A DNA stretch of 64,000 nt, from NCBI GenBank assembly GCA_019638615.1, contig JAHBTL010000029.1, forward strand, positions 1 through 64,000, read 5' to 3'. Below the pieces are notes generated by a model. The model saw nothing but the letters and a program-made list of their open reading frames with translations. It did not search any database and had not been told where the DNA came from. Position 1 is the stretch's first letter; each line of letters opens with the position of its first letter. Shown here one piece after another: positions 1 to 14,785 of this stretch. This DNA comes from Chitinophagaceae bacterium. Lineage in GTDB: Bacteria > Bacteroidota > Bacteroidia > Chitinophagales > Chitinophagaceae. A program made the position numbers and the translations under genes.

Positions 1-1
1 A

Positions 2-721
2 TATGTTGCGATGGGGAATAATCCGATCATAAAAGTAGATGCGACTGGAGGGTGTACAGAATGCCCAGATTCAAGAGGATGGGATAGGAGTAAGCCATGG
101 ATAGATTCAAATGGAAGCATATGGGAAGCAACAGATAATGGATGGGTTGGTTTATTAAACGAGATTAAAATTCAACCAGGCGAATTTAATAATTTAAACT
201 TTAGTCAAATAGGAGCTGAAATAGACGCATATAGAAATTATGGGTTATCAGATGATGAAATAATTAAGAGGTTAGATGGGTATGGCCTATATAACAGTAC
301 ATGGAGAAAAGTGTATAATGCTATGTCTCCAGATGCCACAAGAATACGATTGGCCAAGGCAGAGGCATGGGAAACAGAAGGTAAAATTGCAAAAGGAATT
401 GCCATAGGTATAGGTATAGTTTTTACAGGCGGTATTTTAGCTGAAGCAGGTGTATTTACTTCTGTAGCATCAATGGCTTCAAGGGCCGCTGCATCATATA
501 CTTCATTGTCCATTGACGTGTATACAATTACAAATATAGGATTGAACGAAGTTAGATCAAAAGCGATAATCGCTCTTTTTGCGGCTACTAATCGTTTTCT
601 ACCGTATTCGATAAAAAAGCAACTAATTCAGAGCTCTAAAGGATTTATTAACTTAGCTACTCCTGAAAATACAAAGAAAATAATCGAGCCGATTGTTCCG
701 GGAAAGACATTCCATTGGTAA
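2..721 (+). CDS. RHS-family polymorphic toxin, C-terminal end (5' partial)
   Basis: The reading frame is open from the first bases of the window (Y-V-A before the first ATG at 11), so this is the 3' end of a longer gene. The opening YVAMGNNP followed by D-A-T-G-G-C is the hinge that closes the RHS core in this family; the same hinge recurs in the RHS gene at 2057 (YVAMGNDP, TGGC). After the hinge comes a gene-specific tip of about 220 residues with a hydrophobic, Gly/Ala-rich stretch near residues 125-160 and a basic C-terminus ending KTFHW. The tip is expected to be the toxin, but I do not recognise its fold or catalytic residues. A small membrane protein follows 19 bp downstream, as immunity genes do. 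The RHS call is firm; the toxin activity is unknown. Confidence 0.75.
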   Translation, partial: YVAMGNNPIIKVDATGGCTECPDSRGWDRSKPWIDSNGSIWEATDNGWVGLLNEIKIQPGEFNNLNFSQIGAEIDAYRNYGLSDDEIIKRLDGYGLYNSTWRKVYNAMSPDATRIRLAKAEAWETEGKIAKGIAIGIGIVFTGGILAEAGVFTSVASMASRAAASYTSLSIDVYTITNIGLNEVRSKAIIALFAATNRFLPYSIKKQLIQSSKGFINLATPENTKKIIEPIVPGKTFHW

Positions 722-740
722 GTTGTTAAAATTTTAAATT

Positions 741-1220
741 ATGAGTGGAGAAGAATCTGATTTAGATAAAAATAAGCTACTAGAATTGCTTACTGAAATA
801 AAAAGCACAAATGCGGATAATAGATACTTTCACTTAAGGTCGGTTGAGAACTTTTTAATTCATCTGGATTCATTTAAAGACAGAACAAAAAAGAAAAGAA
901 TTATTAAATATCTTGGAGAATATCTAACAATTATAAAATCGATTGGAGAAAAAGAAGAAATAATTACAGCTGATTGTAGTAGAGACCTGTTTCATAAGTA
1001 CATTTATCCAGTTGCAAATCTCTACAGTATATATGCGCGGTTTGTGCACTACCCTAAGTTTTATGTAATTGTAATTTGGTTTGGCTTTTTTTCCTTGTTT
1101 ATTTACTTGCTGGGACTTTCAATAAGTTTTCAGGCAACTTTAGTAGGATTATTTATTATATATTATTTATTTATTCAACATAAGAAAATTAAAAAATGTG
1201 TTTATGGGCTATATTTTTGA
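741..1220 (+). CDS. Small two-helix membrane protein, possible immunity protein
   Basis: A 159-residue protein lying 19 bp behind the RHS tip on the same strand. The first ~105 residues are charged and helical (many K/E/D), followed by two adjacent predicted transmembrane helices (about residues 108-128 and 131-150) and a short basic tail. No family recognised. Position directly behind a polymorphic toxin tip and the membrane anchoring fit an immunity protein against a toxin acting at or crossing the inner membrane; that role is inference from position only. AT-rich codon use matches the RHS tip in front and differs from the GC-richer genes after 7.4 kb, suggesting they were acquired together. 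Confidence 0.5.
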   Translation: MSGEESDLDKNKLLELLTEIKSTNADNRYFHLRSVENFLIHLDSFKDRTKKKRIIKYLGEYLTIIKSIGEKEEIITADCSRDLFHKYIYPVANLYSIYARFVHYPKFYVIVIWFGFFSLFIYLLGLSISFQATLVGLFIIYYLFIQHKKIKKCVYGLYF

Positions 1221-1340
1221 TTGCGCAGTTTTTTTGTTGTAGAGTATCGGTCATGAATCAAATTTCAGAATAACCTCCATGGAATCAGGGCTTTTAAGAA
1301 AGCATACCCGATCAATGCCAATCCCGATTTATCAGAAATC

Positions 1341-1673
1341 GTGAGTGGAGAAGTTGAGTTTTACGCCCATTGCGTAACAAAGCTGGGCTTGAAAATGAAA
1401 TTTTGGGAAAAGGTAGGAGACACTAAAGAAGTAGGAGATACTAAACATATCCTATTTAAAAATACAGAAGATTATGGTTCAAAAGCAGGTGAAGAACCAA
1501 TCAAAATATCAAAAAAATGGTATGTATGGCGAATTAATGAAAAGTTCGTAGACGTTGGAAAATTGGAAGGAGAAAACCGAAAATCATATATGGGTTTAGT
1601 CGTAAACCCATTAGGGATTATAGAACTTTTGAAGGGAAATAAATACCCAATTAATTATCCCGATTATGAATAA
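1341..1673 (+). CDS. Hypothetical protein, likely orphan immunity-type ORF or 5'-truncated gene
   Basis: A GTG-started frame of 110 residues. The same frame remains open back to 1257 and reads like protein (AFKKAYPINANPDLSEI), but has no ATG there, so either the GTG at 1341 is the start or the 5' end was lost by recombination. It contains an internal tandem duplication, VGDTK-E-VGDTK, encoded by a near-perfect DNA repeat at about 1413-1446. It is soluble, rich in Lys, Trp and Tyr. It sits between RHS pieces, where spare immunity genes and tip fragments accumulate. No family recognised; the function is inference from context. Confidence 0.4.
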   Translation: MSGEVEFYAHCVTKLGLKMKFWEKVGDTKEVGDTKHILFKNTEDYGSKAGEEPIKISKKWYVWRINEKFVDVGKLEGENRKSYMGLVVNPLGIIELLKGNKYPINYPDYE

Positions 1674-1940
1674 GAGCAAAGATATCTAGCGCTGGTCTTG
1701 TAGCAAGGGTAAAGAGCTAAGCCAGACCAGTGCTTATGCGTTACTTTTTTTGTGACAGCAACAGGTGTAAGTTTAACGCTGTGTTGTTAATATATTAACC
1801 TGTTTAAGAAATCAGAATAAGTAAAGGCAAGGCAGCAGGTCTGGCATCGCACAAGGCCATGCTACCAAACCTGCGCCAGTGTGTGATCAAACCCTTCAGT
1901 GGCAGTACGCCCGGCTATGATGCCAATGGAAACATATTGT
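1674..1940 (+). pseudogene. RHS debris between genes
   Basis: No intact gene. From about 1840 a frame reads a short stretch ending G-Y-D-A-N-G-N-I, the typical RHS repeat signature, before running into the 112-bp repeat at 1941. The first part contains an inverted pair (CTGGTCT / AGACCAG, about 24 nt apart, near 1693-1732) that could be a terminator or recombination scar. It is best explained as a remnant of an RHS body cut by the repeat. Confidence 0.45.
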
Positions 1941-2053
1941 TTCTTCTCCGACGAGTCTCTACTCACAGCTTTGAGCAGGAGCAGGACTCGGCGGCAGGCG
2001 GAGAGCAAGGATTATGAATTCCTGCTGATGGGTATCTCCTACCCACTACCATT
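1941..2053 (+). repeat. RHS-associated ~112-bp repeat, copy 1
   Basis: Begins TTCTTCTCCGACGAGTCTCT and ends just before the conserved RHS bases ATTAAAGTGCAG. Nearly identical to the copy at 4110-4222; the identity continues through the RHS sequence to about 2217 / 4386. Two diverged copies lie at 3999-4109 and 5776-5887. In copies 1 and 4 the repeat ends in RHS coding sequence at the same point (ATT..GTGCAG), so it marks a recurrent junction inside RHS genes. Confidence 0.8.
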
Positions 2054-2056
2054 AAA

Positions 2057-3097
2057 GTGCAGGAATACGAGATAGACGGCAGTAACGGACGCATCGGCAT
2101 CTACCGCCCGTCAAATATTTATGCCTGCCAGTTAACAGACCACCTGGGCAATGTGAGAGCAGTGGTAGCCAGGAGCGGTACCAACCTGCAGATAAGGCTG
2201 TATAATGATTATTATCCTTATGGCATGATCATACCTCCCGTTACCACAGGTACGAACGATTACCGGTATGGTTACCAGGGAGCGTATGCAGAAAAAGACC
2301 CTGAAACAGACTGGAATGCATTTGAGCTTAGAATGTATGATGCTAAGATTGCCAGATGGCTGACGATAGATCCTAAAGGAGAATTTTGGAGCCCGTATGT
2401 TGCCATGGGGAATGATCCCGGGAATAATACAGATCCGACAGGTGGCTGCGATGATTGCCCTGAGGGATGGATGGCAAAACCTGTAACACTTTCGGAAGTC
2501 ATTGTAAGAAGTGAGGCTCCCCCAAAATTTAACTGGATGGGTTTGCCCAGGTGGACAAAAGCGGATTATAACAATTTAGTAAGCAATAACGCTTTATTCC
2601 GGGACAGAATGGCCACCGGTGCAGATCTTATGCAGGCAGGCGACCCGGATCATTATACAAACAATTTTGCTTTTTACAGCAGAGCCTACCGGGCTGAACA
2701 GGGGTGGAGGCAGATGAATTATTATTTAATAGATTTTGCTACATTATGGCTGCCTGTTCCTAAATTAGCTATGCTAAGATGGATGAGGTTTGGAGTAGCC
2801 GCTAAGGGGGGAACATCTTTAGTTCAGGCTAATAGAACAGCAGGTAATTTATTTAGAGATGAATTAGCAGCAGCATTGAGAGCAGAAGGGCGGACAGTAA
2901 ATACAGAAGTTTTCAAAAGGACACCATTTGGTAAGCGTTATATGGATTTAGACGTTTGGCATAACGGGGTTAATTTGGGTGGCATAGAAACTAAAGTAGG
3001 CGGTTCTCGTTACCTTCCTTTGCAAAGATTAAAAGATGCTTGGCTTGGGGCAAATGGCTATCCCGTGCAATTGGTTAGAAAACCCACAAATTGGTAA
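2057..3097 (+). CDS. RHS tip with PD-(D/E)XK-like nuclease toxin domain
   Basis: A GTG-started (V-Q-E-Y-E-I-D-G) RHS C-terminal piece of 346 residues. Residues 1-120 are the end of the RHS barrel: DHLGNVRAV, YNDYYPYGM, the DPETDWNAFELRMYD box and the YVAMGNDP hinge. After TGGC-DDCP the tip begins. The last ~90 residues resemble a restriction-endonuclease fold: E in DELAAAL, then YMDLDVW followed after a glycine turn by IETKVGGSRY, giving the D...ExK pattern of PD-(D/E)XK nucleases. The bulk of a normal RHS protein (signal, filamentous body) is missing; upstream sequence is the 112-bp repeat with a stop at 2015. It may be a silent tip cassette or a gene using the GTG. A DUF4304 immunity gene follows 6 bp downstream. 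Confidence 0.75.
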   Translation: MQEYEIDGSNGRIGIYRPSNIYACQLTDHLGNVRAVVARSGTNLQIRLYNDYYPYGMIIPPVTTGTNDYRYGYQGAYAEKDPETDWNAFELRMYDAKIARWLTIDPKGEFWSPYVAMGNDPGNNTDPTGGCDDCPEGWMAKPVTLSEVIVRSEAPPKFNWMGLPRWTKADYNNLVSNNALFRDRMATGADLMQAGDPDHYTNNFAFYSRAYRAEQGWRQMNYYLIDFATLWLPVPKLAMLRWMRFGVAAKGGTSLVQANRTAGNLFRDELAAALRAEGRTVNTEVFKRTPFGKRYMDLDVWHNGVNLGGIETKVGGSRYLPLQRLKDAWLGANGYPVQLVRKPTNW

Positions 3098-3103
3098 AAG
3101 AAA

Positions 3104-3709
3104 ATGGACATATTTAAAGAACTTATTAAAGCATTAACCCCCATATTGAAACCAATAGGGTTTAGTAAAAAAGGAAATAGCTTTTACTTAGAAGCGGGTA
3201 AGAATTATGGGATTGTAAACTTTCAAAAAAGTAGAGATAGTACAAAAGACGTAACCAAATTTACAATCAATTTTGGTATCTATTCCGATGCTTTAGGGCA
3301 ATTACAATATGGTTACAACAATTCAGTAAAACCGGAAGTTGAACAGTGCCATTGGGAAGCAAGAGTTGGGAGTTTTATGGCGGGTAGTCCTGATTATTGG
3401 TGGAATGTCAGTACATCAGACAATTTGAGCGGCATTACTTCTAATGTAATGGAAGCTGTTCAGAGTATTGTAGTGCCTGAAATAAATAAACGCCTATCTG
3501 ATGAAGGTTTAATAAACAGTTGGATGAATGATAGCTATGCCGGTACAACGGAAATAGGTAGGTTTAAATATCTAACGACCCTCTTAAAGGCAAAAGGGGA
3601 TTTTGATACTTTAAACCAAGTCGTTGAAACATTTATGCAACAATCAAAAGGAAAGCCAAATGCCATCAGGGCAATGGAGCATCTAAAGGAAATAGAATAT
3701 AGTAAGTAA
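3104..3709 (+). CDS. DUF4304 domain protein, probable immunity protein
   Basis: A 201-residue soluble protein beginning 6 bp after the RHS nuclease stop codon. The N-terminal half matches the DUF4304 pattern as I know it: a helix with LKPIGFSKKGNSFY, then NFQKSRDS and TKFTINFGIYSD, with aromatic WW around residue 105. DUF4304 proteins recur behind polymorphic toxins and are regarded as immunity proteins. Here the tight spacing and the nuclease tip upstream support protection of the producer against that nuclease, probably by direct binding. The last third is helical. A hairpin with a T-rich tail closes the pair at 3715. Confidence 0.7.
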   Translation: MDIFKELIKALTPILKPIGFSKKGNSFYLEAGKNYGIVNFQKSRDSTKDVTKFTINFGIYSDALGQLQYGYNNSVKPEVEQCHWEARVGSFMAGSPDYWWNVSTSDNLSGITSNVMEAVQSIVVPEINKRLSDEGLINSWMNDSYAGTTEIGRFKYLTTLLKAKGDFDTLNQVVETFMQQSKGKPNAIRAMEHLKEIEYSK

Positions 3710-3714
3710 AAATC

Positions 3715-3745
3715 AAGCCCCGGAAAGTCCGGGCTTTGTTTATTT
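3715..3745 (+). terminator. Intrinsic terminator after the RHS/DUF4304 pair
   Basis: AAGCCCCGGA-AAG-TCCGGGCTT forms a stem of nine pairs with one bulged C, followed by TTGTTTATTTATT. It also closes the convergent XRE remnant on the other strand, so it probably acts in both directions. Confidence 0.7.
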
Positions 3746-3998
3746 ATTAAAGGCTTTCTTAGTCTTGTAGTTTTGGATAACGTTATCAATGAGGAAAAAC
3801 AGGTGCTGCTTAGTGGCTTCGTCCAGTTTTTCAATGTCCTCAATGCGTTTTAGCAAATCCTTGTCCAGGGCAGCCAGTTCGCCCTCTCCGATAATGTAAT
3901 CTACGCTTACATTAAACACCTTAGCCAGTTTTATCAATACCTCAATGGAGGGTGTATTGGCGTTACGCTCGTAGTTCCCGATGATAGTCCGGGACACT
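3740..3998 (-). pseudogene. XRE-family HTH regulator, 5' end replaced by the repeat
   Basis: Minus strand. The surviving part encodes the second half of an XRE/Cro helix-turn-helix (TIIGNYERNANTPS, then IEVLIKLAKVFNVSVDYIIG) and a C-terminal helix rich in K/E/D, typical of small Bacteroidota repressors of about 110 residues. The first helices (the Q-x-x-L-A segment) are absent: upstream of S-R-T the frame runs into the 112-bp repeat (copy starting at 3999), which supplies an unrelated leader. The gene therefore looks broken by insertion or recombination at the repeat edge, and the resulting protein should not bind DNA normally. A fusion ORF remains open to 4075, but its N-terminus is repeat-derived. 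Confidence 0.7.
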
Positions 3999-4109
3999 TT
4001 CTTCTCCGACGAGTCTCTACTCATAGCTTTGAGCAGGAGCAGGACTTGTCGGCAGGCAGGAGATAATGTATGCATTCATACTGATGGGTATCTCCTACCC
4101 CACTGCCAT
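3999..4109 (+). repeat. RHS-associated ~112-bp repeat, copy 2 (tandem with copy 3)
   Basis: Begins TTCTTCTCCGACGAGTCTCT like the others, but its second half differs (GACTTGTCGGCAGGCAGG, then ATAATGTATGCATTC). This variant matches the copy at 5776-5887. It is followed directly by copy 3 at 4110, a tandem arrangement. Its left edge falls inside the XRE gene. Confidence 0.75.
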
Positions 4110-4222
4110 TTCTTCTCCGACGAGTCTCTACTCACAGCTTTGAGCAGGAGCAGGACTCGGCGGCAGGCGGAGAGCAAGGATTATGAATTCCTGCTGATGG
4201 GTATCTCCTACCCACTACCATT
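4110..4222 (+). repeat. RHS-associated ~112-bp repeat, copy 3
   Basis: Near-identical to copy 1 (1941-2053) including the variant ending (GAGAGCAAGGATTATGAATT) and the RHS sequence after it, about 277 bp in all. This shared block of RHS sequence plus repeat is long enough for homologous exchange between the two loci. Confidence 0.8.
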
Positions 4223-4225
4223 AAA

Positions 4226-4522
4226 GTGCAGGAATACGAGATAGACGGCAGTAACGGACGCATCGGCATCTACCGCCCGTCAAATATTTATGCCTGCCAG
4301 TTAACAGACCACCTGGGCAATGTGAGAGCAGTGGTAGCCAGGAGCGGCACCAACCTGCAGATCAGGTTGTATAATGATTATTACCCGTATGGCATGGTGA
4401 TAACACTCAGTTATTACAGGTAAATAATGGTATGGTTACCAGGGACAGTGGAGAAAGACCCGAGACAGACTGGAAGATGCTTAACTTAGAAATGTGTGCG
4501 CAAAAAATTGCGGTGGATATTT
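4226..4522 (+). pseudogene. Decayed RHS tip remnant
   Basis: Starts like the gene at 2057 (QEYEIDGSNGRIGIYRP, DHLGNVRAV) and is nearly identical to about 4386. It then degrades: after YYPYGM a stop occurs, and a shifted frame can still be followed as YQGQ..EKDPETDW and a worn version of the FELRMYDAKIARW box up to about 4520. It is a duplicate of the functional-looking tip at 2057 that has lost its toxin part. Confidence 0.75.
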
Positions 4523-5775
4523 TGAGTGTAAAACATCAAAGGCAATCCTGCTCCATAAAGGTGTGTGGCAGCAGTATAACTCAGGTTGCGAGTAGATCTG
4601 GACGGATAATGTGGTCGGCGAGTTGGAACTAATCTGTGTCCAATGCCCTGACAAAAAAGCATTCATAACTGTAAGATGACATTGCTGGGCGTGGATTTTT
4701 TGCCTCATATGGATCGTAAGATAATGCGTAACGAATGCTACATGAATGTTCACCACTGATAGGAAATAAATTTGGAATGTATTAGAAGATGGTGAGTTTT
4801 GGGAGAGGTGCCGAGATAGAAGAACACTGAATAGATCGACTGATAAAACATTTGAGTTTAAATGGAAAAAATCAGCCCAGACTATGCTTTTGCGTTAGTT
4901 GCACTCATCTTCGAGTTGGCAGATTCCTAAGTGTGCTCACCTGTTTATATAGGTGTGGCATGCAAAATGGCACAATGTGTGAGAGGTCGTGTGAATCAGG
5001 AATGATTTATAATCGACGTAATAGCCCAGTGATAATATAATGAGCAAGATGGTGAAAATTGCAGTAAGCTTCACAAGCTTGAGATAAAAACCTAGTTTTG
5101 GCTATAACGATCTCAAAAAAGTAAAAAATCACTCTTACCATCATTTTGCCAGGATAATTATCATCGAAATGAGTTATTTTATGATCCAATGTAGCAGTGA
5201 TGAGAGTTGGATAACAGGAAATCTAATACATATCAAAATTATCTTTTTTTGGCACAATAATTATAAATTTATATGAAACTGAGAACTTTAATATCATTCT
5301 TAATACACTTTTACGTTATATTTTTATAACAACTTTTTTTACTCAAAATGTTAAAAGGAATCTATATAAATAAAAAAATCCAGAAACTCAATTTTCGGAG
5401 GAAGGTGCTTTAGATACTTTAATTATATTTGGAAACAATCAATTTGATAGTAAATATTGGGAAGCGGTCGTTTCGATCTTTCGTATTCTTAAGTGAGGTA
5501 CCACTATTAATATGCATAGCAACAATAGTTTGGACAATCCATAGGTCATGGTTTTCTAATCCAAGAATAATGATTATGAAAGACTTAGATACATATTATG
5601 AAAGACAATAGTTAACACATGTTAGCAGTCAAAAGAGAAGTCGCACTTAATCTTGATAAGTGAATGGCTCGGTCTGGCGCAGGGTGTGCTGTAGAAGTTG
5701 TATAAAAGATTGGTAGTAGGTATACCATCCCAACAGCTATCGGGACTGTGCAAGCGGTGGCTGTAAACCACCACT
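4523..5775. other. 1.25 kb gene-free, AT-rich region
   Basis: No convincing gene on either strand. Only short ORFs of 60-90 residues with random-looking composition are present. The sequence is AT-rich, like the RHS tips, and probably consists of decayed tip or immunity genes that I cannot identify. No tRNA, array or strong hairpin noticed. Confidence 0.5.
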
Positions 5776-5887
5776 TTCTTCTCTGACGAGCCTCTATTCA
5801 TAGCTTTGAGCAGGAGCAGGACTTGTCGGCAGGCAGGAGATAATGTATGCATTCATACTGATGGGTATCTCCTACCCCACTGCCATT
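5776..5887 (+). repeat. RHS-associated ~112-bp repeat, copy 4
   Basis: Diverged at the start (TTCTTCTCTGACGAGCCTCT) but otherwise equal to copy 2, including the ATAATGTATGCATTC segment. It ends in CCATTACGGTGCAG, the RHS sequence that encodes I-T-V-Q in the intact RHS frame (compare about 6975-6988). Confidence 0.8.
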
Positions 5888-6120
5888 ACGGTGCAGCAAC
5901 CTGGTTTACTCCGATTACTATCCTTTTCACAGTTGTTGGAATAAGCAAGTGCCGTTTTTGGTATGCAGTGTAGCTAATGTGGGCGGAGTACTAACAACAG
6001 AAAGTTTGTGAGGTTTGCAGCACTAATATAAACTGTGCTGTGGAGATATGAAATAGATGGAGTAGGTAGGAGGATAGGAATATACTACCGCCCGTCAAAT
6101 ATTTTTTGAATGACTACTAA
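5888..6120 (+). pseudogene. Scrambled RHS remnants
   Basis: After the repeat, RHS-like words survive out of frame: about 6047-6108 encodes a worn YEIDGVG.RIGIYYRPSNIF, ending at the same CGCCCGTCAAATATTT block seen at about 2106 and 4275. The stretch near 5985-6040 resembles, on the nucleotide level, the block at about 13005-13060 on the far side of the XrtN cassette. No intact gene. Confidence 0.55.
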
Positions 6121-6360
6121 TTTTATAGTTATGAGATTCCGTTTATTATCATTCTTCTATTTGTTTGCCTCCTTTACGCTAATGCTCAATCTCAAAAAGA
6201 TGATCTACGAAAGATACAATTCGGCATTGCTGGAGGTGTTAATCTGAGCCGCACACCTGCGCTTTCTTACATTGAGATTACACCCGGTTTTAAGAACTAT
6301 CGTAAAAGCAGGTATGCTGTTGGTGCTGCGGCAAAATTTTTCCTGGAAGTCAAGGCTTAA
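6121..6360 (+). pseudogene. Outer-membrane beta-barrel protein fragment
   Basis: A frame ending at the TAA of 6358-6360 reads a hydrophobic leader (PFIIILLFVCLLYANAQSQ), which looks like a signal peptide with an A-N-A-Q cleavage region, then KIQFGIAGGVNLSRT and YRKSRYAVGAAAKFFLEV. This is the style of small Bacteroidota porin-type barrels: beta strand, glycine-rich turn, N-L-S. It has no ATG in frame and stops after about 80 residues, so it is a truncated remnant. It may have been carried in with the RHS rearrangement. Confidence 0.5.
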
Positions 6361-6633
6361 TTGATCCTGAGTTAAACAGCAAACCAGCAATAGCTATTTC
6401 TACATATGCTGTCACCATTTCCTCATCTTTCATACTGCTGAAATATTCAATCTCTTGGGTTCTCCGCAATGTCTGCCCGTGCTTAGCCTGTGCGTTGGCA
6501 GGCGACGTTGCGGTAGGGGGAGAATCAAAGGTTGTAATTAAAACTCTTGCTATACAAAGAAGATGTAGATTTGATGAAACAGGGACAATGATAATGCCTC
6601 GCAGCGTTCAGCTCATGCACAAAAGGTGCGGAG

Positions 6634-7107
6634 TTGCGACTCGGAGAACCCAAGAACCAGTTGCAGAGCATTACCAATATGCTTACCAGCACCGAGTATG
6701 CCGGTTACACCTATGATGAAATGGGGCGATTAACGTATGAAAATACGAGCAATGCCGCGCAAAAGAAATACATTAAATACGATGTTACAGGCAAGGTGGT
6801 ATTGATATCAAGAAATGCAGCTTTTACACAGCCTGTGGTGGAGTATGTATACAATGAGCTGGGGCAAAGAATAATAAAGAAGCTGTACAACAGCAGCTAC
6901 GTAGAAATAAACAGGACTTATTATGTGGGGGATGCTGTTTATACGCAACCTGTAACAGGGGGCGTTGGCGGCGCCATTACGGTGCAGGAATACGAGATAG
7001 ACGGTGGCGGCGGACGCATCGGCATTTATTACCGCCCGGGCGATATCCAGTCAGACCCTATCTCCAATAGTTCGTTCCTGTTTCTTTTGCTTACCATTAT
7101 AAGTTAG
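6634..7107 (+). pseudogene. RHS repeat-region fragment
   Basis: Contains real RHS body sequence: YTYDEMGRLTYE, then YIKYDVTGKVVLI, VEYVYNELGQRIIKK, the YYVGDAVYTQ segment and ITVQEYEIDGGGGRIGIYYRP. It starts without a proper start (TTG at 6634, garbled RHS-like sequence before it) and leaves RHS homology near 7046 at CCGCCCGGGCGATATC, ending after 20 unrelated residues. It supplies the part of the RHS chain that lies just before the tips at 2057 and 4226, so an ancestral gene seems to have been broken into pieces. Confidence 0.75.
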
Positions 7108-7117
7108 CAATTGGGGC

Positions 7118-7145
7118 CAATCATTGAGCCGTGACATGTTGTATT
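7118..7145 (+). repeat. 28-bp direct repeat, left boundary of the XrtN cassette
   Basis: Begins CAATCATTGAGCCGTGAC and ends GACATGTTGTATT. It is identical over 28 bp to 12567-12594. The two copies enclose the four-gene exosortase cassette. Flanking bases differ on both sides (GGGGC before the left copy, GGTCT before the right), so the identity stops sharply, as with attachment sites or recombination scars. Confidence 0.85.
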
Positions 7146-7299
7146 TGTTTGTCGCAGCGTTCTGATTTGTAAGTATCCTAATTAATAAACATCAAACTGA
7201 ATAACCAGTCATTGCCGTCCCGCAGGTATAAGGATTTGATATAGAGCAATAAAAATAAAAGACTCAAAAAAAGTTTGGAAAGATCAGTTTTCTGATTTT

Positions 7300-7322
7300 A
7301 CTTTGTAATTCAAAGTACTTTT
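7300..7322 (+). promoter_or_regulatory. Palindromic operator 1 (ACTTTG-N5-CAAAGT)
   Basis: ACTTTG TAATT CAAAGT, followed by ACTTTT. A second copy lies 58 bp downstream. Likely a regulator binding site for the XrtN cassette; the regulator is unknown. Confidence 0.55.
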
Positions 7323-7357
7323 TCAATTCCCTTCACGGGATAATTTTTTGAATAAAT

Positions 7358-7380
7358 ACTTTGTGATTCAAAGTACTTTT
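7358..7380 (+). promoter_or_regulatory. Palindromic operator 2 (ACTTTG-N5-CAAAGT)
   Basis: ACTTTG TGATT CAAAGT, again followed by ACTTTT, 18 bp upstream of the preferred ATG at 7393. The longer ORF from the ATG at 7348 would run through this palindrome, which is one reason for preferring 7393 as the start. Confidence 0.55.
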
Positions 7381-7392
7381 AAATATGTAATC

Positions 7393-7881
7393 ATGGAAAA
7401 AATCATCAGGCTCAAAAAAAGTATCAGGAAGTGGATGCTGTTTTTTATTGTATCGCTGCTATTGAGCGGTATTACAGCCTTTGCTGTTGAAACAGAATTA
7501 CACTGGGTATTAAGCTGGTGGCCGGAAACCCATTCATCGTTTTACAATTGGCTGGTTACATCGTGCGATGCCATCCGTGATACCAATGAAAAATACCCTT
7601 ATATCGCTTACGGGTACGACTGGCTGGCTTTTGCGCACATCGTTATTGCAGTAGCTTTTATTGGTCCCCTGGTAGATCCCGTCCGTAATATCTGGATCAT
7701 AGCGGTTGGATGCATAGCCTGTGTGCTCATCTTTCCTCTGGCATTTATTGCAGGCCACATCCGGCATATACCTGTTTACTGGCGCCTGATTGATTGCTCA
7801 TTCGGCATTTTCGGGTTGATCCCACTGCTGGTTTGCTATAAGAAAACAAGAATGCTCGAAAATATTGACTACGCACGATAA
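7393..7881 (+). CDS. Small polytopic membrane protein of the XrtN cassette
   Basis: 162 residues from the ATG at 7393; an ATG at 7348 is in frame but lies ahead of the second palindromic operator. A basic N-terminus (KIIRLKKSIRKW) precedes about four transmembrane helices: residues 15-35, a periplasmic-type loop with WSWWPETHSS, then helices near 80-100, 105-125 and 132-150. No family recognised. It is the first gene of the repeat-bounded exosortase block, 30 bp ahead of the VIT protein, so co-transcription is likely. A role in the exosortase system is inferred from position only. Confidence 0.6.
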   Translation: MEKIIRLKKSIRKWMLFFIVSLLLSGITAFAVETELHWVLSWWPETHSSFYNWLVTSCDAIRDTNEKYPYIAYGYDWLAFAHIVIAVAFIGPLVDPVRNIWIIAVGCIACVLIFPLAFIAGHIRHIPVYWRLIDCSFGIFGLIPLLVCYKKTRMLENIDYAR

Positions 7882-7911
7882 CCTTTCATCTTACATTATA
7901 CAAGCAACTGT

Positions 7912-10419
7912 ATGCATACTGAAGTAAAAAAACAAACCGATGGCATTTATATTGCAGGGCTGGTGCTGCTTGCCATTTCCTTTGTACTGTTTTGTGTTCC
8001 TCTTTTTTATCAGCCTGTGGGCAACGGCTTTTTTGTTGTTCATTTTTCAATAACAGGACTGTACTTTTTTATATTGTTGTTTTCGGGCAGATTACGGAAG
8101 GGAAGAGAAGGACTGCAACCTATGTTTGTATTCCTGCTGTTGTTTTTGGTCAGCGCTTACGCACTGAACCGGGAGATAGCCATTTTTGAGCCGTCAACAG
8201 ACTGGTTCACTGTATTGCTGCTGACGATTGGTGTTAATTACCTGCTGTTGTATTTTTTTGACAGGTTACCGGGATGGCTCCAATACCTCTGCTGTTTTAT
8301 CGGCGGGGTGGCATTGGTTACTTTCATTTACCTCTCACTGTATCTTTTTCCTACTTATCTGATAGGGATCATAGCAGCATTGTTTTTAGGTATCTCGCTG
8401 CATGTGTTTGTGCCGCTGCTGTTCTGTATTTATACACTTGTTTTTTTCAAAAGAATAAAGTCGTTATCACGGCAATACACTATCTGGTTTCGTACGGGCA
8501 TGGCGACAAGCTTGCTGGTTGTTATTGCATTTGTTACAGCCTGGAGCATTAAAGTACATCGTATCAATAAAGCGATGGTATCCGGTAATAAAGATTTCCC
8601 GGCATGGATCAGCGCTGCCCAAAAAATGTCGCCCGGTTTTATAGAGAACCGCATATGTAAAGCCGGCCTGGTATATGCTGTACCCGATGATGTATTTGAA
8701 AGCATTTTCTGGAGAATGCCCACGAGAGGATTTGACGAAGAAATGAAGCACGATCCCCTTGTTTTGATTGCATCACTCATTGCCGGCAAGGGTGAGCTAA
8801 CGAACGATGACAGGATCAATATGCTCAGGTCAATGTATGATTCTCGTCACCAGGCAGAGGAACGGTTATGGTCCGGGGAGGACCTGTGCACCAGCTTTGT
8901 TTCCAATAACGTTGAAGTATGGCCGCAGTTCAGGATAGCGTATTCGGAATTGAAAATCCGGGTGCAGAACAATTATACCGCCGGCACATGGAATAGCAGG
9001 CAGGAAGCCATTTATACGTTCCATTTGCCCGAGGGAAGCGTTGTTACCTCCCTGTCGTTATGGATCAATGGAATGGAAGAAAAAGGAATCCTCACTACCC
9101 GTTCAAAAGCCGATACTGCGTATAAAACCATTGTAGGGAGAGAAGCGCGTGATCCTTCGGTGGTGCATTGGCAGGAAGGGAACCGCGTTACAGTAAGGGT
9201 GTTCCCCGTTGAACGAGGACAATACAGGGATTTCAAAATAGGCGTTACAAGCCCGCTGCAAAGGAAGGATAACAGGTTGTTGTACCAGCCCGTATACTTT
9301 GACGGTCCTTTGGCTACCGGGGCTAAGGAAGAAACAGAGATCAGGTTTGCGGAGCAACCGAAAAATTTTCAAACATCGGCGGCATTTGATGAAAACAGTG
9401 AGCATGTTTATACCAGGAAAGGAAGGTACAACCCGGGCTGGTATATAGCTTTTGATAAAAGTCCGTTAAGCACCGGAGCATTTTCATTCAATGGCAGGCA
9501 TTATACCGCGTTTACGGCAGGAGATGAAAGAGAAACAATGGAAGTGACCAGTGTTTACCTGGATGTCAATGCGTCCTGGTCGGCAGGAGAGTGCAGAAAA
9601 ACATATGATATAGTGAAACAAAAAAAGGTATTTACGGCCGGGGCGGACGGAAAGATGCAGGAGCTCACGGAACAGAACGCGGATCGTATCTTCAGCGAGC
9701 TGCGGAACAATACATTCAGCCTTTTTCCTTTTTACAAAATCAGTGGCACGGCTTCCGCGCTGGTTGTTACCAAAAGCAATATTGCTTCTCCCTTGCTGGG
9801 CGATGTAAAGCATACGGAATTCGGATCCGGCATTCAAACATTTATTTCCGCACGGAATAAAATATATGTTTTTAATATAGGCGATTCGCTTTCGCCCTAC
9901 CTCCGGTCTTTAAAGGAGCTCCGTACTTTCAACTATGCGGCGGGCGATTTAATATTTCTCGAAGAACTGGTGCGATCGCGCCGCTTCCCGGCAAACCTGG
10001 AGAAAGACCAGGACGTGGTTCTCGATACGGCAGGCATGGTCATCAGGGAGGCAGAAGGGGAGAAGGAATCGCTTGCGCCGGATCATTTAATGCGGCTGTT
10101 TGCCTACAATAATATCCTGAAGCAATACGGGGCAGCCGTGGTGTCGGGCAATGATATAGTGCGGGAGGCGATAGCGCAGGCCGAGCAGGCATATGTGGTT
10201 TCTCCCGTATCAAGCATGGTGGTACTGGAAACGCAGCGCGATTATGAAAGGTTCGATATCAAAGCCAGCCAGGATAGTCTTAAGAATGCTTCGCTGGCTT
10301 CGAAAGGAGCCGTTCCTGAGCCGCATGAATGGGCCATGATGATAATCGCCGTATTGCTGTTGCTGTATGTACGTCGTCGTTCTTTCGATCCTTCAGTGAA
10401 TCATTCATCATGGGAATAG
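7912..10419 (+). CDS. XrtN-system VIT domain protein with PEP-CTERM-like tail
   Basis: 835 residues. N-terminal membrane part (about residues 12-215) with roughly six or seven helices, then a soluble part holding a VIT (vault/inter-alpha-trypsin) domain at about 340-450 (QEAIYTFHLPEGSVVTSLSLWINGMEE, KTIVGREARDPSVVHW, NRVTVRVFPV). The C-terminus is a tripartite sorting-type signal: PEP at about 812-814, a hydrophobic helix (WAMMIIAVLLLLYV) and a basic R-R-R end. This is the architecture of the VIT proteins that accompany exosortase N in Bacteroidota. The tail makes it a probable substrate of the exosortase encoded next, which overlaps it by 10 bp. Its end function (envelope or polysaccharide related) is not known. 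Confidence 0.8.
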   Translation: MHTEVKKQTDGIYIAGLVLLAISFVLFCVPLFYQPVGNGFFVVHFSITGLYFFILLFSGRLRKGREGLQPMFVFLLLFLVSAYALNREIAIFEPSTDWFTVLLLTIGVNYLLLYFFDRLPGWLQYLCCFIGGVALVTFIYLSLYLFPTYLIGIIAALFLGISLHVFVPLLFCIYTLVFFKRIKSLSRQYTIWFRTGMATSLLVVIAFVTAWSIKVHRINKAMVSGNKDFPAWISAAQKMSPGFIENRICKAGLVYAVPDDVFESIFWRMPTRGFDEEMKHDPLVLIASLIAGKGELTNDDRINMLRSMYDSRHQAEERLWSGEDLCTSFVSNNVEVWPQFRIAYSELKIRVQNNYTAGTWNSRQEAIYTFHLPEGSVVTSLSLWINGMEEKGILTTRSKADTAYKTIVGREARDPSVVHWQEGNRVTVRVFPVERGQYRDFKIGVTSPLQRKDNRLLYQPVYFDGPLATGAKEETEIRFAEQPKNFQTSAAFDENSEHVYTRKGRYNPGWYIAFDKSPLSTGAFSFNGRHYTAFTAGDERETMEVTSVYLDVNASWSAGECRKTYDIVKQKKVFTAGADGKMQELTEQNADRIFSELRNNTFSLFPFYKISGTASALVVTKSNIASPLLGDVKHTEFGSGIQTFISARNKIYVFNIGDSLSPYLRSLKELRTFNYAAGDLIFLEELVRSRRFPANLEKDQDVVLDTAGMVIREAEGEKESLAPDHLMRLFAYNNILKQYGAAVVSGNDIVREAIAQAEQAYVVSPVSSMVVLETQRDYERFDIKASQDSLKNASLASKGAVPEPHEWAMMIIAVLLLLYVRRRSFDPSVNHSSWE

Positions 10420-11759
10420 TTATCGGGTGGATAAAGGTTCAATGGCTGGCGCTGTGCCTTGTGTTAGGCTATGCCGCCATCTTCTGGTGGCAGCTTGCCG
10501 ATTATGTGAACGTTGGTTCGCTGGATTTTCAGTTGGGAATGCTGGCGCTGATGGTAGTTGTATCGTCAAACAGCAACAGGCAAAAAGGAGGATTACGGTT
10601 TGCTGTAGCCGCAGTGGTGGCGGCAATCATCACCATCTTCCTTCCTGTTAAAACCATGCTGTATGTTACAGTTTTGCTGGCGGTTTTTTTTGTAGTGGAA
10701 ACCTGTGTTGCGAAAATACCTGCGTTAAGCATACTGGCAATTGTGCTGGTATCGCCGATATGCAGGTACGTGATGAATGTTTTCAGCTTTCCTGTCAGGC
10801 TTTGTCTTACCCGTTGGGTGGGAGGAATGCTTTCTTTTACAGGTTGCGATTCGTCTGCCGAGGGAAATATCATCCTGTACAATGGCGATGAGTTTTCGGT
10901 TGATCCTGCCTGTATGGGAATGTATATGCTCATTACTTCATTGCTTTCGGGTATTATGGTGATCGCCCTGCAGCAAAAAAAATACGGGCGAACGCTCAAG
11001 CCAGTCGTGGTTATTTTGTTCCTGTTGTTTATTACCGGATGTAATGTGTTGTGTAACCTGTGCCGGATTTTTATATTGGTATATTATAAAATATTGCCCG
11101 ATACGATCATGCACGAGGTGACGGGGATTGTTTGTTTTGTAGTGTATGTAATAGTGCCTGTTGTACTATGCGCCCCATGGGTAATAAAGAAATATGGGAA
11201 ACCAGCATTAAAGCATGACGCACGGCAGGACATTACAACAGGTTGTATCAAGTGGGGCAGGCATGCCGTGGTAGCCATATGTTGTCTGTCGGCGGCTGTG
11301 GTAACAGCTCATCAGAAAAAGATGAATAGTACCGGCAAAGTTTTTGACAATAACGGGATGTATGCTGTTTCTGCTTTGCACAATGGTATTACAAAAATGG
11401 AGAACGACTCGGCGCTTATTTACCTGAAACCCATACGCGGCTTTTATTCCAGCGATCATCACCCGATGGTTTGCTGGACAGGAAGCGGGTATGAATTTAC
11501 GAAAGTACATGCCGGGAACATAGGTGGCAAAGAAGTATATGAAGGCATATTGAGTAAGGGAAAGGAAAAATTATATACCGCGTGGTGGTATGATAACGGT
11601 GATCATTTTACCATAGAACAATGGGCGTGGCGGTGGGATATGCTGAGGGGGAGCAAACCGTATTCATTGATAAATATAACTGCCGCTGACGGCTATGAGC
11701 TTAAAAGGCAGGTGGAATATTTTATTCATAACAGGCGACAGGTAAATACGTCGCACTAA
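10410..11759 (+). CDS. xrtN: Exosortase N fused to an EpsI-like domain
   Basis: The start is taken at the ATG at 10410, overlapping the upstream stop; this gives 449 residues. A multi-pass membrane protein with the exosortase triad visible: Cys168 in DPACMGMYML, Arg219 in NLCRIFILVYYKI, and His235 in MHEVTGIVCF. Exosortases are membrane transpeptidase-like enzymes that cleave PEP-CTERM type tails during export. From about residue 300 a soluble domain follows (KPIRGFYSSDHHPMVCW-TGSGYE and YTAWWYDNGDHFT) that resembles EpsI, a partner usually fused or adjacent to exosortases. The adjacent VIT protein carries a PEP-type tail and is the obvious substrate. The subtype N assignment rests on this VIT neighbour and Bacteroidota context. 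Confidence 0.8.
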   Translation: MGIVIGWIKVQWLALCLVLGYAAIFWWQLADYVNVGSLDFQLGMLALMVVVSSNSNRQKGGLRFAVAAVVAAIITIFLPVKTMLYVTVLLAVFFVVETCVAKIPALSILAIVLVSPICRYVMNVFSFPVRLCLTRWVGGMLSFTGCDSSAEGNIILYNGDEFSVDPACMGMYMLITSLLSGIMVIALQQKKYGRTLKPVVVILFLLFITGCNVLCNLCRIFILVYYKILPDTIMHEVTGIVCFVVYVIVPVVLCAPWVIKKYGKPALKHDARQDITTGCIKWGRHAVVAICCLSAAVVTAHQKKMNSTGKVFDNNGMYAVSALHNGITKMENDSALIYLKPIRGFYSSDHHPMVCWTGSGYEFTKVHAGNIGGKEVYEGILSKGKEKLYTAWWYDNGDHFTIEQWAWRWDMLRGSKPYSLINITAADGYELKRQVEYFIHNRRQVNTSH

Positions 11760-11769
11760 AGTTAAGCAT

Positions 11770-12525
11770 ATGGATTGCTTTGTAGCGAAAGATTCAATTG
11801 TCAGGACCATATGGGGAAAATCGGATACCGTACTCTTTATTTTTGCCGGCGCTGCCGCGGAGTTTGCGGTAAACAAGTCGGTAGACTGGTTGTATTTTAC
11901 GGGCAAGCTTCCCGCCGATCCCATTGGACGTTTATTCTCCACCGTGCGTTATGCCGGGCAGATCGTTTTTTCGGATACCCGTACGGCGCTTGGCGCGATT
12001 GATCATATTAATAAGGTACATGCAGCTGTTGAATCGGCGCGCGGGCAGGAAATACCCCAGGAGGCATACCGGGATGTGCTGTTTATGCTGATCCATTATA
12101 GCATATCGGCATTTGAATTGTTGGAAAGAAAGCTTACACAGGCGGAAAAGGAAGAAGTAGTACATGTGTTTATACGGGTAGGAAGAAGGATGGGCATCCG
12201 GTTGCTGCCATTAGGATACCAGGCCTGGACGCAGATGCACAGCGCCCAATTAGAGAATAATCTTGCTGCAGGCGCCTGTACGGCAGATCTGTATGATCAA
12301 TATCGAAAGCATCTTGGTTTTTTCCGCTATTATATCCTGGTACATGTGCAATACCTGATCACTCCGCCGCGCGTACGGCACCTGCTGAACCTGGAGCCCT
12401 CGCTGACCCTGAATATATTGCTTCTGTGCTACAAATGGAGCAGGAAAATAAAGATGGATCCTGTTATTAAATCCTGGCTGCTTCCTGCTAAATACAGAAA
12501 AGAGATAAGGGAGTTGGACAGGTAG
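11770..12525 (+). CDS. DUF2236 / MpaB-type oxygenase family protein
   Basis: 251 residues, starting 10 bp after xrtN. The N-terminal part shows the pattern of the DUF2236 (oxygenase MpaB, latex-clearing-protein-like) family: GAAAEFAVNKSVDWLYFTGKLPADPIGRLFSTVRYAGQIVFSD, then AIDHINKVH, with later all-helical segments containing YRDVLFMLIHYSISAFELL. Family members are haem- or metal-dependent oxygenases acting on lipids, isoprenoids or unknown substrates; I cannot identify the ligand residues with certainty. As last gene of the block bounded by the 28-bp repeats it probably works with the exosortase system, which would be an unusual pairing. Confidence 0.65.
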   Translation: MDCFVAKDSIVRTIWGKSDTVLFIFAGAAAEFAVNKSVDWLYFTGKLPADPIGRLFSTVRYAGQIVFSDTRTALGAIDHINKVHAAVESARGQEIPQEAYRDVLFMLIHYSISAFELLERKLTQAEKEEVVHVFIRVGRRMGIRLLPLGYQAWTQMHSAQLENNLAAGACTADLYDQYRKHLGFFRYYILVHVQYLITPPRVRHLLNLEPSLTLNILLLCYKWSRKIKMDPVIKSWLLPAKYRKEIRELDR

Positions 12526-12566
12526 CAGCCTCTTATAGGTCATAGCGAGTAAACCATTAGTGGTCT

Positions 12567-12594
12567 CAATCATTGAGCCGTGACATGTTGTATT
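12567..12594 (+). repeat. 28-bp direct repeat, right boundary of the XrtN cassette
   Basis: Perfect copy of 7118-7145, 41 bp after the DUF2236 stop codon, in the same orientation. Confidence 0.85.
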
Positions 12595-12629
12595 CGTATT
12601 TTTCAGTTATTATATGTATGCCCGGTTCG

Positions 12630-12950
12630 GAGAAAATGTATCAGGGGCCTGTAGCTGAGTTAACAGTAGTACCAAAGCTTAATCGATCCCGCTTTTTGCG
12701 GGACCCGAAATCGGCCGTAGTCCCAGCCTGCCGGCTGGCAGGGATTTCGGGCGCCCGCCCCTGCCTGCCGTTCGGCAGTTCAGGCAGGCGAACGACGTTC
12801 AAGTCGGGCGGGGCTTTTTGCCTGCCCGACTGAAGTCATTCAGGCGGGGGTTACTTTTTTTCGCAAAAAAGTAACAAAGAAACCAGCACCAGGCTTTGTG
12901 GTTGAAAAGAAAGTGAGTTTTATAAGTAACAAAAGTAACAGGTCTGTACC
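12630..12950 (+). repeat. Dispersed repeat with hairpin payload, copy 1
   Basis: First module around 12637-12682 (ATCAGGGGCCTGTAGCTGAG, then TTAACAGTAGTACCAAAG); middle payload of nested GC-rich hairpins (CCCGAAATC...GATTTCGGG, plus GCCTGCC palindromes); second module GGTTACTTTTTTTCGCAAAA-AAGTAACAAAGAAACCAGCA and GAGTTTTATAA. The same modules occur at 58140-58350 (+) and inverted at 46030-46240. Payloads differ between copies while the modules are conserved. Confidence 0.75.
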
Positions 12951-12959
12951 AGACATATC

Positions 12960-13202
12960 CTACCTTATTAGCTTCAATAGTAATGAGTGTAAGTTTATGA
13001 CCGGAGTACCAACAACAGGAGCTTGAGATGCTGCTATATTATTACAGCCTGTACCGTGGATTGTTGTTGGTGAAGCCGAAGCACAGTAAGCTATACACAA
13101 CACCAATAACGGCAGCAGGGTGAGGGCAATTAAATATGCAGCGACAATTATATACCCCCCCATATAGAAACTGCCGCAGACACACAGATTTAATCTGTGC
13201 AT
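12960..13202 (-). pseudogene. Secreted-protein N-terminal remnant
   Basis: An 80-residue minus-strand frame. From the internal Met-Gly-Gly it has a strong signal-peptide-like helix (YIIVAAYLIALTLLPLLVLC), then a short polar segment (SPTTIHGTGCNNIAASQAPV) and stops. This looks like the first 60-70 residues of a large exported protein, perhaps an RHS or gliding-type surface protein, with the body lost. Part of the same sequence is detectable, worn, near 5985-6040 inside the RHS debris. Confidence 0.35.
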
Positions 13203-13209
13203 CTGCGGC
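13173..13209. terminator. Long palindromic hairpin
   Basis: GCCGCAGA..CACAGATT / AATCTGTG..TCTGCGGC folds into a stem of about 16 pairs with small internal mismatches, followed by TAAAAAA on the plus strand. Could terminate transcription from the left. Confidence 0.5.
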
Positions 13210-13275
13210 TAAAAAATCCGGGGTATATCCTATGTTTTGCGGGCTTGCCCGCGGGACCAATTTGGAATGCCCCCG

Positions 13276-13309
13276 TTGTTTAAGATAGCCGCGTAATGCC
13301 CTATCTTTA
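13276..13309 (+). promoter_or_regulatory. Putative sigma-ABfr promoter of the CvfB-like gene
   Basis: TATCTTTA at 13302-13309 approximates the Bacteroidota -7 box TAnnTTTG; a TTG at 13276 is a weak -33 match at longer than ideal spacing. It overlaps the ATG at 13296, supporting the later start at 13317 and a very short leader. Confidence 0.4.
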
Positions 13310-13316
13310 CCCCTTT

Positions 13317-14153
13317 ATGATACAAGCCGGATTATATCATACATTAAAAGTGTTGCGCCTGGTAGAACCGGGCGCCTACCTTGACGACGGGGAGGATGGA
13401 ATTCTGTTGCCCAACAGGTTTGTGCCGAAAGGGTTGAAGAGGGGAGATGAAATACGCGTTTTTATACATCACGATTCAGAAGGACGAAAGATCGCTACCA
13501 CGCAACAACCCAAAGGAGTGCTGGGTGATTTAGTGTTGCTGGAAGCGGTGTCCGTTACTCCCCAGGGCGCTTTTCTGGATTGGGGATTAATGAAGGATAT
13601 TTTTGTTCCGAAGTCGAAGCAAAGGTCAAAGATGTATGCCGGGGAAAAATACCTGGTTAAAATATACCGCGACGAACAAACCGGGAGAATAGCGGCTACA
13701 GAAAAGATCGATGCTTTTTTAAGCAATGAGATACTGACTGTTAAGGAGATGGAGATGGTTGACCTGGTAATATACCGGCGCACCGATATTGGTTATGTGG
13801 TCATCATCAATAACAAACATACCGGTGTTATTCATTTTAATGAAGTATTTCGCAACCTGGAACCGGGAGACCGGTTGCAGGGTTTTATAAAAACCATTAC
13901 CGAAGATCATAAGATAGATATAGTTGCCGGTAAGCCCGGTTACGACAAGGTAAGTGACGAGACTGCAAAAGTGATGCAGTTGCTGGAAGAACACAATGGT
14001 TATCTTCCTTACAACGATAAATCGGCGCCCGAAGACATTTATGCTTTTTTCGGGATGAGCAAAAAAGTGTTTAAAATGACAACCGGCAGCTTGTACAGGC
14101 AGAAGAAAATTGTTTTCACCCAAGCCGGGATCCAGCTTGTAAAAGATCAATAG
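13317..14153 (+). CDS. CvfB/YitL-like S1 RNA-binding protein
   Basis: 278 residues from Met at 13317; an ATG at 13296 is in frame but falls within the promoter core. It has tandem OB/S1-type modules: GAYLDDGEDGILLPNRFVPKGLKRGDEIRVFIHHDSEGR, then GAFLDWGLMKDIFVPKSKQR with YLVKIYRDEQTGRIAAT, then a third module (GYVVIINNKHTGVIHFNEVFRNLEPGD), and a C-terminal winged-helix segment ending GMSKKVFKMTTGSLYRQKKI. This is the classic CvfB layout. Family members bind RNA and affect virulence factor expression in Firmicutes; the role here is unknown. Single gene, convergent with the next. Confidence 0.85.
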   Translation: MIQAGLYHTLKVLRLVEPGAYLDDGEDGILLPNRFVPKGLKRGDEIRVFIHHDSEGRKIATTQQPKGVLGDLVLLEAVSVTPQGAFLDWGLMKDIFVPKSKQRSKMYAGEKYLVKIYRDEQTGRIAATEKIDAFLSNEILTVKEMEMVDLVIYRRTDIGYVVIINNKHTGVIHFNEVFRNLEPGDRLQGFIKTITEDHKIDIVAGKPGYDKVSDETAKVMQLLEEHNGYLPYNDKSAPEDIYAFFGMSKKVFKMTTGSLYRQKKIVFTQAGIQLVKDQ

Positions 14154-14173
14154 TGTTGACCGGTTAATTTTCT

Positions 14174-14785
14174 TCAGGATTCAATATTAAACGCCCTGTT
14201 TAGCGACCATATTACATCTTCCGGTCTCCTGGATGATGGAATAAATTTTTTCAGTGGTTCAATTATTTGGGGGTATTCATCAATGAAAGCGAGCGCCGGT
14301 ATCTCATTCAACGCAAAATTTTTCATGATGTTTGAAAACAGGCTTTTATCATTGCCCGAAAAGCGAATGTATTTTGAAGAAGTAATAATGATCTCTGTTA
14401 AGCCCTGCGCGGTATGAGATGACAGGGAAAATGCGAGGGCGCAATCCCCGGTGAGCTCTGTTTCAAACCTGCTGAGGGTTTGCAGCGCTTCTGCTTTTGA
14501 AACCGGCTCTGTAAGATAAGTTGCCTCATCGTTGAAAGAATATTCGAGTACAATTTCCGGAGGCAGGAGGGTAGCCAGCTCCGTTATAAGATGCCACAGC
14601 TTTGAGTTGTTAATATTGATCTCCGCCTGGAAAGTATAGGGTACTTTAGCGTTGTTGCTTTCCGTTAGTTTGTAGCCTTCCATGATCAGCGCCTTTTGTC
14701 TTTTTAATAACAGCTCTTCTATATCCGGCCGGTGGGGCAGTTCCCATGCTTCAGGCACTCTTGCGGTAATGGGTATTTCAAGCAT
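14174..14785 (-). CDS. Conserved hypothetical protein
   Basis: 203 residues from the Met at 14785 (MLEIPITARVPEAWELPHRP). The longer frame to 14836 overlaps a TACCTTTA promoter-like box, so the shorter start is preferred. It is soluble with an alternating alpha/beta pattern (TFQAEININNSKLWHLITELATLLPPEIVLEYSF). No signal peptide, no motif I recognise. It lies convergent to the CvfB-like gene and divergent from the EamA transporter. Confidence 0.6.
   Translation of the reverse strand: MLEIPITARVPEAWELPHRPDIEELLLKRQKALIMEGYKLTESNNAKVPYTFQAEININNSKLWHLITELATLLPPEIVLEYSFNDEATYLTEPVSKAEALQTLSRFETELTGDCALAFSLSSHTAQGLTEIIITSSKYIRFSGNDKSLFSNIMKNFALNEIPALAFIDEYPQIIEPLKKFIPSSRRPEDVIWSLNRAFNIES

Follow-up and report, generated by a model that had tools for sequence, protein, structure and literature searches.

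On a stretch of 64,000 nucleotides from a Chitinophagaceae bacterium (contig JAHBTL010000029.1, positions 1 to 64,000; hereafter the window), an exosortase gene stands in a block of four genes on one strand, and the question raised by this locus is what holds these genes together. The block encodes a small membrane protein (SMP), a protein with a VIT domain and a PEP-CTERM-like tail, exosortase N (XrtN) and an oxygenase-like protein of the MPAB/Lcp type. An initial annotation had proposed a joint insertion of the four genes as a single unit, with an identical repeat of 28 base pairs (bp) on either side. The comparison with relatives points to common control rather than common insertion, i.e. 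the SMP-VIT-XrtN-MPAB operon would be one target of an HTH_34/CreD-linked envelope regulon of the Bacteroidota, a reading to which we assign a probability of roughly 0.75. The block and the sites preceding it comprise the following features:

7300-7316, no strand: palindromic operator-like site 1, ACTTTGTAATTCAAAGT, exact
7358-7374, no strand: palindromic operator-like site 2, ACTTTGTGATTCAAAGT, exact, 58 bp after site 1
7393-7881, plus strand: SMP, helical protein of 162 amino acids, membrane-type by eye, no named family
7912-10419, plus strand: XrtN-system VIT-domain protein with PEP-CTERM-like tail (TIGR04477; PF08487)
10410-11759, plus strand: exosortase N, XrtN (TIGR04476)
11770-12525, plus strand: MPAB/Lcp-type (DUF2236) oxygenase-like protein (PF09995)

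Palindromic sites and the linked regulator gene

The two sites are the only exact copies of the palindrome ACTTTG-N5-CAAAGT in the assembly of 7.18 Mb, and also the only sites within the window that agree in at least 11/12 positions. Paired sites are also present in two congeners, at a distance of 58 bp in G412 and of 57 bp in G486, and at least one exact palindrome heads the block in all eight genus genomes that bear MPAB. In the window genome and in G320 a palindrome overlaps the 5'-terminal part of the longest SMP open reading frame (ORF), upstream of the likely start. A third exact palindrome was seen in G486 (L180:18588), after the common right flank; its target gene lies beyond the fetched stretch.

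Much of the evidence for the palindrome comes from its position in other genomes. We compiled 31 XrtN loci, i.e. 34 genomes with a TIGR04476 match minus four below the cut-off (G144, G240, G154 and G287, which were also left out of the trees) plus G486. A site of at least 11/12 lies within -300 to +80 of the VIT start in 21 of them, and five more carry an exact site farther upstream, at up to 6 kb, which results in a total of 26/31. A second set was obtained by a contig search with the VIT alignment, from which the best 80 of 214 relatives were taken; it includes Niastella, Chitinophaga, Mucilaginibacter, Pedobacter, Pontibacter and Chryseolinea, and some of its genomes overlap with the 31 loci. 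The same contig search with the XrtN protein as query gave no match. Among these 80 VIT loci the site is found near VIT in 56 and at the head of an apparent operon in 16 more, adding up to 72/80, where the operon-head sites and the total were read by eye from the tabulated loci. Within the same loci, near sites were found at 56 of 77 VIT starts compared to only 29 of 886 other ORF starts (three of the 80 loci, with less than 350 nucleotides upstream, were dropped). At the level of sequence, the palindrome also precedes VIT-XrtN operons in several lineages of the Bacteroidota.

The candidate regulator is a winged-helix protein of 99 amino acids belonging to HTH_34 (PF13601). The copy in the window genome (C45:188023-188313) scores 106.5 bits against HTH_34 (cut-off 27), and the regulator matches PH1061 (PDB 1ub9) at 3e-11. 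Its gene is paired with another gene, here called c0, whose product is membrane-type by eye and has no family match in Pfam and NCBIfam. The c0-HTH_34 pair adjoins VIT-XrtN in some loci and is situated elsewhere in others. In many of the loci compared, palindromes stand on both flanks of the pair, and genes for CreD, DgkA and DUF1361 often come next. This arrangement is also found in the window genome around 188 kb of C45, where sites of 11/12 precede c0 and also separate HTH_34 from CreD (511.1 bits).

The link between site and regulator was quantified in 195 genomes of the family, in which the regulator was called as a match at an E value of 1e-20 or better, with a query from one of the 130 positive genomes. 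The exact palindrome occurs in 125 of the 130 regulator-positive genomes versus 15 of the 65 regulator-negative ones (Fisher p 4e-27), with means of 2.05 and 0.26 palindromes per genome, respectively. Moreover, the regulator is encoded in 17/17 genomes with XrtN versus 113/178 others of the family sample (p 9e-4).

However, several observations weigh against the proposed regulon. The reversed control sequence also occurs twice in the window genome, which makes the count there uninformative and places the weight on position, and the regulator's own sites in this genome reach 11/12 only. No site was found in five of the 31 XrtN loci and in eight of the 80 VIT loci, although in several of the latter the contig terminates close to the VIT start. 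Five regulator-positive genomes are devoid of an exact site, whereas 15 negative ones have one. The reversed control is also more frequent in regulator-positive genomes (1.13 compared to 0.62 per genome); therefore, the difference in palindrome number is partly due to genome size and composition. Furthermore, most XrtN loci have neither SMP nor MPAB. Weighing these points against the association, we still infer that the HTH_34 protein, encoded together with c0, would bind ACTTTG-N5-CAAAGT and control the promoter of its own gene, operons for the envelope proteins CreD, DgkA, DUF1361 and DUF4153, and the VIT-XrtN operon, for which the window genome provides two sites.

The gene block and its variation

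The initial annotation of the two central genes was confirmed. The VIT protein reaches 925.1 bits against TIGR04477 (cut-off 250), and its C-terminal end (GAVPEPHEWAMMIIAVLLLLYVRRR followed by 15 more residues) shows the expected make-up of VPEP, a hydrophobic stretch and RRR. XrtN scores 366.6 bits against TIGR04476 (cut-off 200). Its residues C168, R219 and H235, which we take to be the catalytic Cys, Arg and His of exosortases, show no variation across 107 aligned XrtN rows, some of which share one genome and which overlap with the 31-locus and 80-locus sets. XrtN is predicted to cut or transfer the VIT protein at the C-terminal PEP signal. The C-terminal part of XrtN, described as EpsI-like, matches TIGR02914 weakly (E 0.0073, 15.8 bits, below the cut-off of 42.8). 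In this part, K340, H350, P352, C355 and W356 are fixed in the 107 rows (residues 340-360; window 11427-11489) and may represent a second functional site.

MPAB scores 58.9 bits against PF09995 (gathering cut-off 23), and all nine aligned members match this family at E 0.001. Its predicted model resembles the t-anethole oxygenase 8s1j (TM-score 0.66, match probability 1.00, E 0.021) and Lcp 5o1l (TM-score 0.60, match probability 1.00, E 0.035); no PDB fold match was obtained at E 0.001. H84 and H181 are fixed in the nine rows. Searching PDB by sequence up to E 1 turned up nothing related to MPAB or XrtN. SMP matches neither an NCBIfam nor a Pfam family at E 0.01. Its 20 aligned rows share 28 invariant columns, and its predicted model is an all-helical bundle (pLDDT 92.6), for which the PDB fold search gave no match at E 0.001.

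The initial annotation had seen substrate, protease and oxygenase as a new functional module, and this proposal holds in part. XrtN accompanies VIT in 78 of the 80 VIT loci. SMP is present in 19, close to VIT-XrtN in 18 and far away in one (L221). MPAB is present in eight, namely in two congeners, two Pedobacter and four Mucilaginibacter records. The four Mucilaginibacter records display the order VIT-XrtN-SMP-X-MPAB. The co-occurrence of DUF2236 and the small membrane protein with xrtN, which the initial annotation had suggested to check elsewhere, extends to Pedobacter and Mucilaginibacter records, in another gene order, but not to most XrtN loci. The gene X between SMP and MPAB (L212, L218, L235 and L244) encodes a protein of about 133-136 amino acids that is membrane-type by eye; X of L212, the one searched, has no NCBIfam match. 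Judged from these neighbourhoods, SMP and MPAB are recurrent but optional partners of XrtN and not parts of an obligate module, and the VIT-XrtN pair as such was already defined in NCBIfam. If present, both would probably contribute to the envelope process in which the VIT protein and XrtN take part.

Within the genus (12 genomes including the window genome), MPAB is present in eight genomes, and its surroundings vary as follows:

Window: SMP-VIT-XrtN-MPAB-repeat-CvfB
G486: VIT-XrtN-MPAB-CvfB, with an apparent remnant of the SMP start
G412: SMP-VIT-XrtN-MPAB, different right neighbour
G320 and G484: SMP-MPAB-CvfB
G487: SMP-MPAB at a contig end
G483 and G491: MPAB-CvfB
13317-14153 of the window, plus strand: CvfB-like S1/winged-helix protein, the conserved right neighbour (PF13509, PF17783)

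In G486, the closest relative as judged by MPAB (79%), the apparent first codons of SMP are left before the VIT gene (L180:6030-6134). CvfB is the next gene after MPAB in five of the seven other MPAB-bearing congeners. VIT-XrtN is not at the locus in five congeners that keep SMP-MPAB or MPAB (G320, G484, G487, G483 and G491), and a search of the whole genome of G320, the sole one of them searched in this way, revealed no XrtN elsewhere. In the window species and in G412, VIT-XrtN is situated between SMP and MPAB, and these two genes adjoin each other in congeners without VIT-XrtN there. According to gene order, the variable unit at this locus is VIT-XrtN, while SMP of G486 was probably lost by deletion.

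One alternative concerns the direction of this change: instead of a gain between SMP and MPAB, VIT-XrtN could have been present at the locus ancestrally and have disappeared from congeners. In favour of such a loss, the XrtN proteins of the three bearers (the window species, G486 and G412) form one group inside the family (99/92), as do their VIT proteins (93/87; 29 rows, without G200 and G263, whose VIT ORFs stayed outside the cluster). However, the MPAB tree (eight rows, root not fixed) separates the three bearers from the other rows by one branch (85/90), as would equally be expected after a single gain, and the SMP tree with five rows does not group the bearers. These unrooted trees fit gain and loss alike; an ancestral presence is a real, if tentative, possibility.

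Other readings of the palindrome and the flanking repeat

Two further alternatives question the proposed HTH_34 operator itself. Firstly, the palindrome could be a promoter element or a generic hairpin. The site is indeed close to gene starts, and TTTG motifs resemble promoter elements of Bacteroidota. However, the exact palindrome is found in only 0-5 copies per genome in the 195 family genomes, it is strongly linked to one regulator gene with sites on both flanks of c0-HTH_34, and it is enriched at VIT starts over the other starts of the same loci. Hence, we regard this explanation as improbable. Secondly, and with a slightly smaller chance, the palindrome could serve as operator for a different factor whose occurrence coincides with that of the HTH_34 gene, given that the evidence for HTH_34 is association throughout. 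But the HTH_34 gene directly adjoins sites, as autoregulation would have it, and the HTH_34 cluster was found in 32 loci compared to 3-4 for other regulator-like clusters (c19, c28 and c32; assigned by eye), a comparison that is biased as some loci were chosen for holding the HTH_34 gene. Thus, binding by the HTH_34 protein appears as the most plausible reading of the palindrome.

The 28-bp repeat belongs to two copies of a larger element:

7118-7181, plus strand: left repeat copy, truncated, holding the left 28-mer (7118-7145); 7120-7181 matches many places in the genome at 92%
12539-12912, plus strand: right, longer repeat copy with hairpins, holding the right 28-mer (12567-12594), between MPAB and CvfB

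The initial annotation was right in placing four same-strand genes between identical repeats: the 28-mer CAATCATTGAGCCGTGACATGTTGTATT is exact on both sides, and the likeness extends to 40 nucleotides at 88%. It was also right about the debris of RHS genes on the left, where TIGR03696 matches at 2057-3097 and a sub-threshold RHS repeat at 6634-7107, and about the hairpin-rich repeat on the right. Positions 1-7107 of the window hold pieces of RHS-core genes and fragments with internal repeats. However, the 28-mer has six exact copies in the genome, four of them outside the locus, and its core of 23 nucleotides finds 62 matches in the genome at up to three mismatches compared to none for the reversed control. 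Hence, the match is not a chance event, yet it is not specific to the cassette. The copy alignment revealed a dispersed repeat of approximately 346 nucleotides in a near-identical copy set. Strong hairpins and many near-identical copies characterize this repeat in the window species. The two local copies differ in extent, with approximately 62 nucleotides on the left and a longer copy on the right, of which 12539-12700 matches many places in the genome at up to 92% (the query stopped at 12700).

The relatives place the two copies in time. Beyond the window genome, the family sample (194 further genomes) contains no match to the core; within the genus it has ten matches in G486, one in G490 and none in the remaining nine relatives. 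The left copy recurs at the orthologous place in G486, where its core differs by one change and it precedes the common promoter region at an equal distance; approximately 140 nucleotides of the RHS tail preceding it are common as well. Therefore, the left copy is older than the split of the window species and G486. The right copy is absent from G486, where the gap between the MPAB and CvfB ORFs is 36 nucleotides; judged from this alignment, either the window species acquired it or G486 lost it cleanly. As only the left copy is common to both, the two copies arrived at different times.

Against this background, the insertion of all four genes as one unit bounded by the repeat, or a repeat that is the scar of a site-specific event, is very improbable: the exact flanking pair and the restriction of the core among the family genomes speak for it, but the repeat is dispersed with local copies of different extent, G486 carries VIT-XrtN-MPAB with the left repeat only, which by itself refutes this reading, SMP-MPAB and MPAB-CvfB neighbourhoods exist without VIT-XrtN, and the NCBIfam and Pfam profiles gave no integrase or transposase among the four genes. 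The G+C content (0.44-0.48 in the four block genes, 0.43-0.47 in four adjoining genes) makes a compositional test uninformative, and Rfam gave no match at the gathering score in window 4000-14500.

Known systems and functional implications

The block clearly contains the exosortase N system of NCBIfam (TIGR04476/TIGR04477), with both proteins far above the cut-off and their genes together in the sampled loci. In contrast to the locus described here, the NCBIfam entries name no regulator, operator, SMP or MPAB. Among the exosortases of Bacteroidota, XrtF of Flavobacterium johnsoniae and its associated protein belong to a comparable family but represent another exosortase; the xrtF deletion mutant colonised less and formed much less biofilm (PMC10936215). 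The regulator of the window genome is similar to other HTH_34 proteins (PF13601; PH1061, 1ub9), but differs by the frequent neighbourhood of c0 and the palindrome. With LexA-like operators of Bacteroidetes, given as GGA-N5-TCC and CTAA-N5-TTAG in PMC8565304, the palindrome shares the inverted repeat with a spacer of five nucleotides, whereas half-sites, regulators and targets differ. MPAB shares the Pfam family with the oxygenases 8s1j and 5o1l, which its predicted model resembles at an identity of 12-16%.

A literature search for exosortase N by name found no paper, and XrtN gave no exosortase paper by title. Likewise, nothing was found in print, mostly among top-listed titles, on the operator, the regulator link or the SMP and MPAB partners, and no publication was found that links CreD and HTH_34, or DUF2236, with an exosortase. 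What is new here concerns the operator, its link to the regulator, and SMP and MPAB as recurrent partners, whereas the VIT-XrtN pair was already known from NCBIfam and the repeat is an ordinary one.

Going one step further, there is about an even chance that a widespread envelope regulon of the Bacteroidota, consisting of HTH_34, its membrane partner and the operator, switches on an exosortase, its single VIT substrate and CreD-type proteins, and in some lineages also an MPAB heme oxygenase and a new SMP family. If true, the exosortase system would be under the control of a signal, with a single surface protein being processed in response to a cue from the envelope. The conserved operator and the candidate regulator would give the XrtN system a biological context and make the signal testable, while CreD, DgkA, SMP and MPAB may offer a handle on the function of the processed VIT protein.

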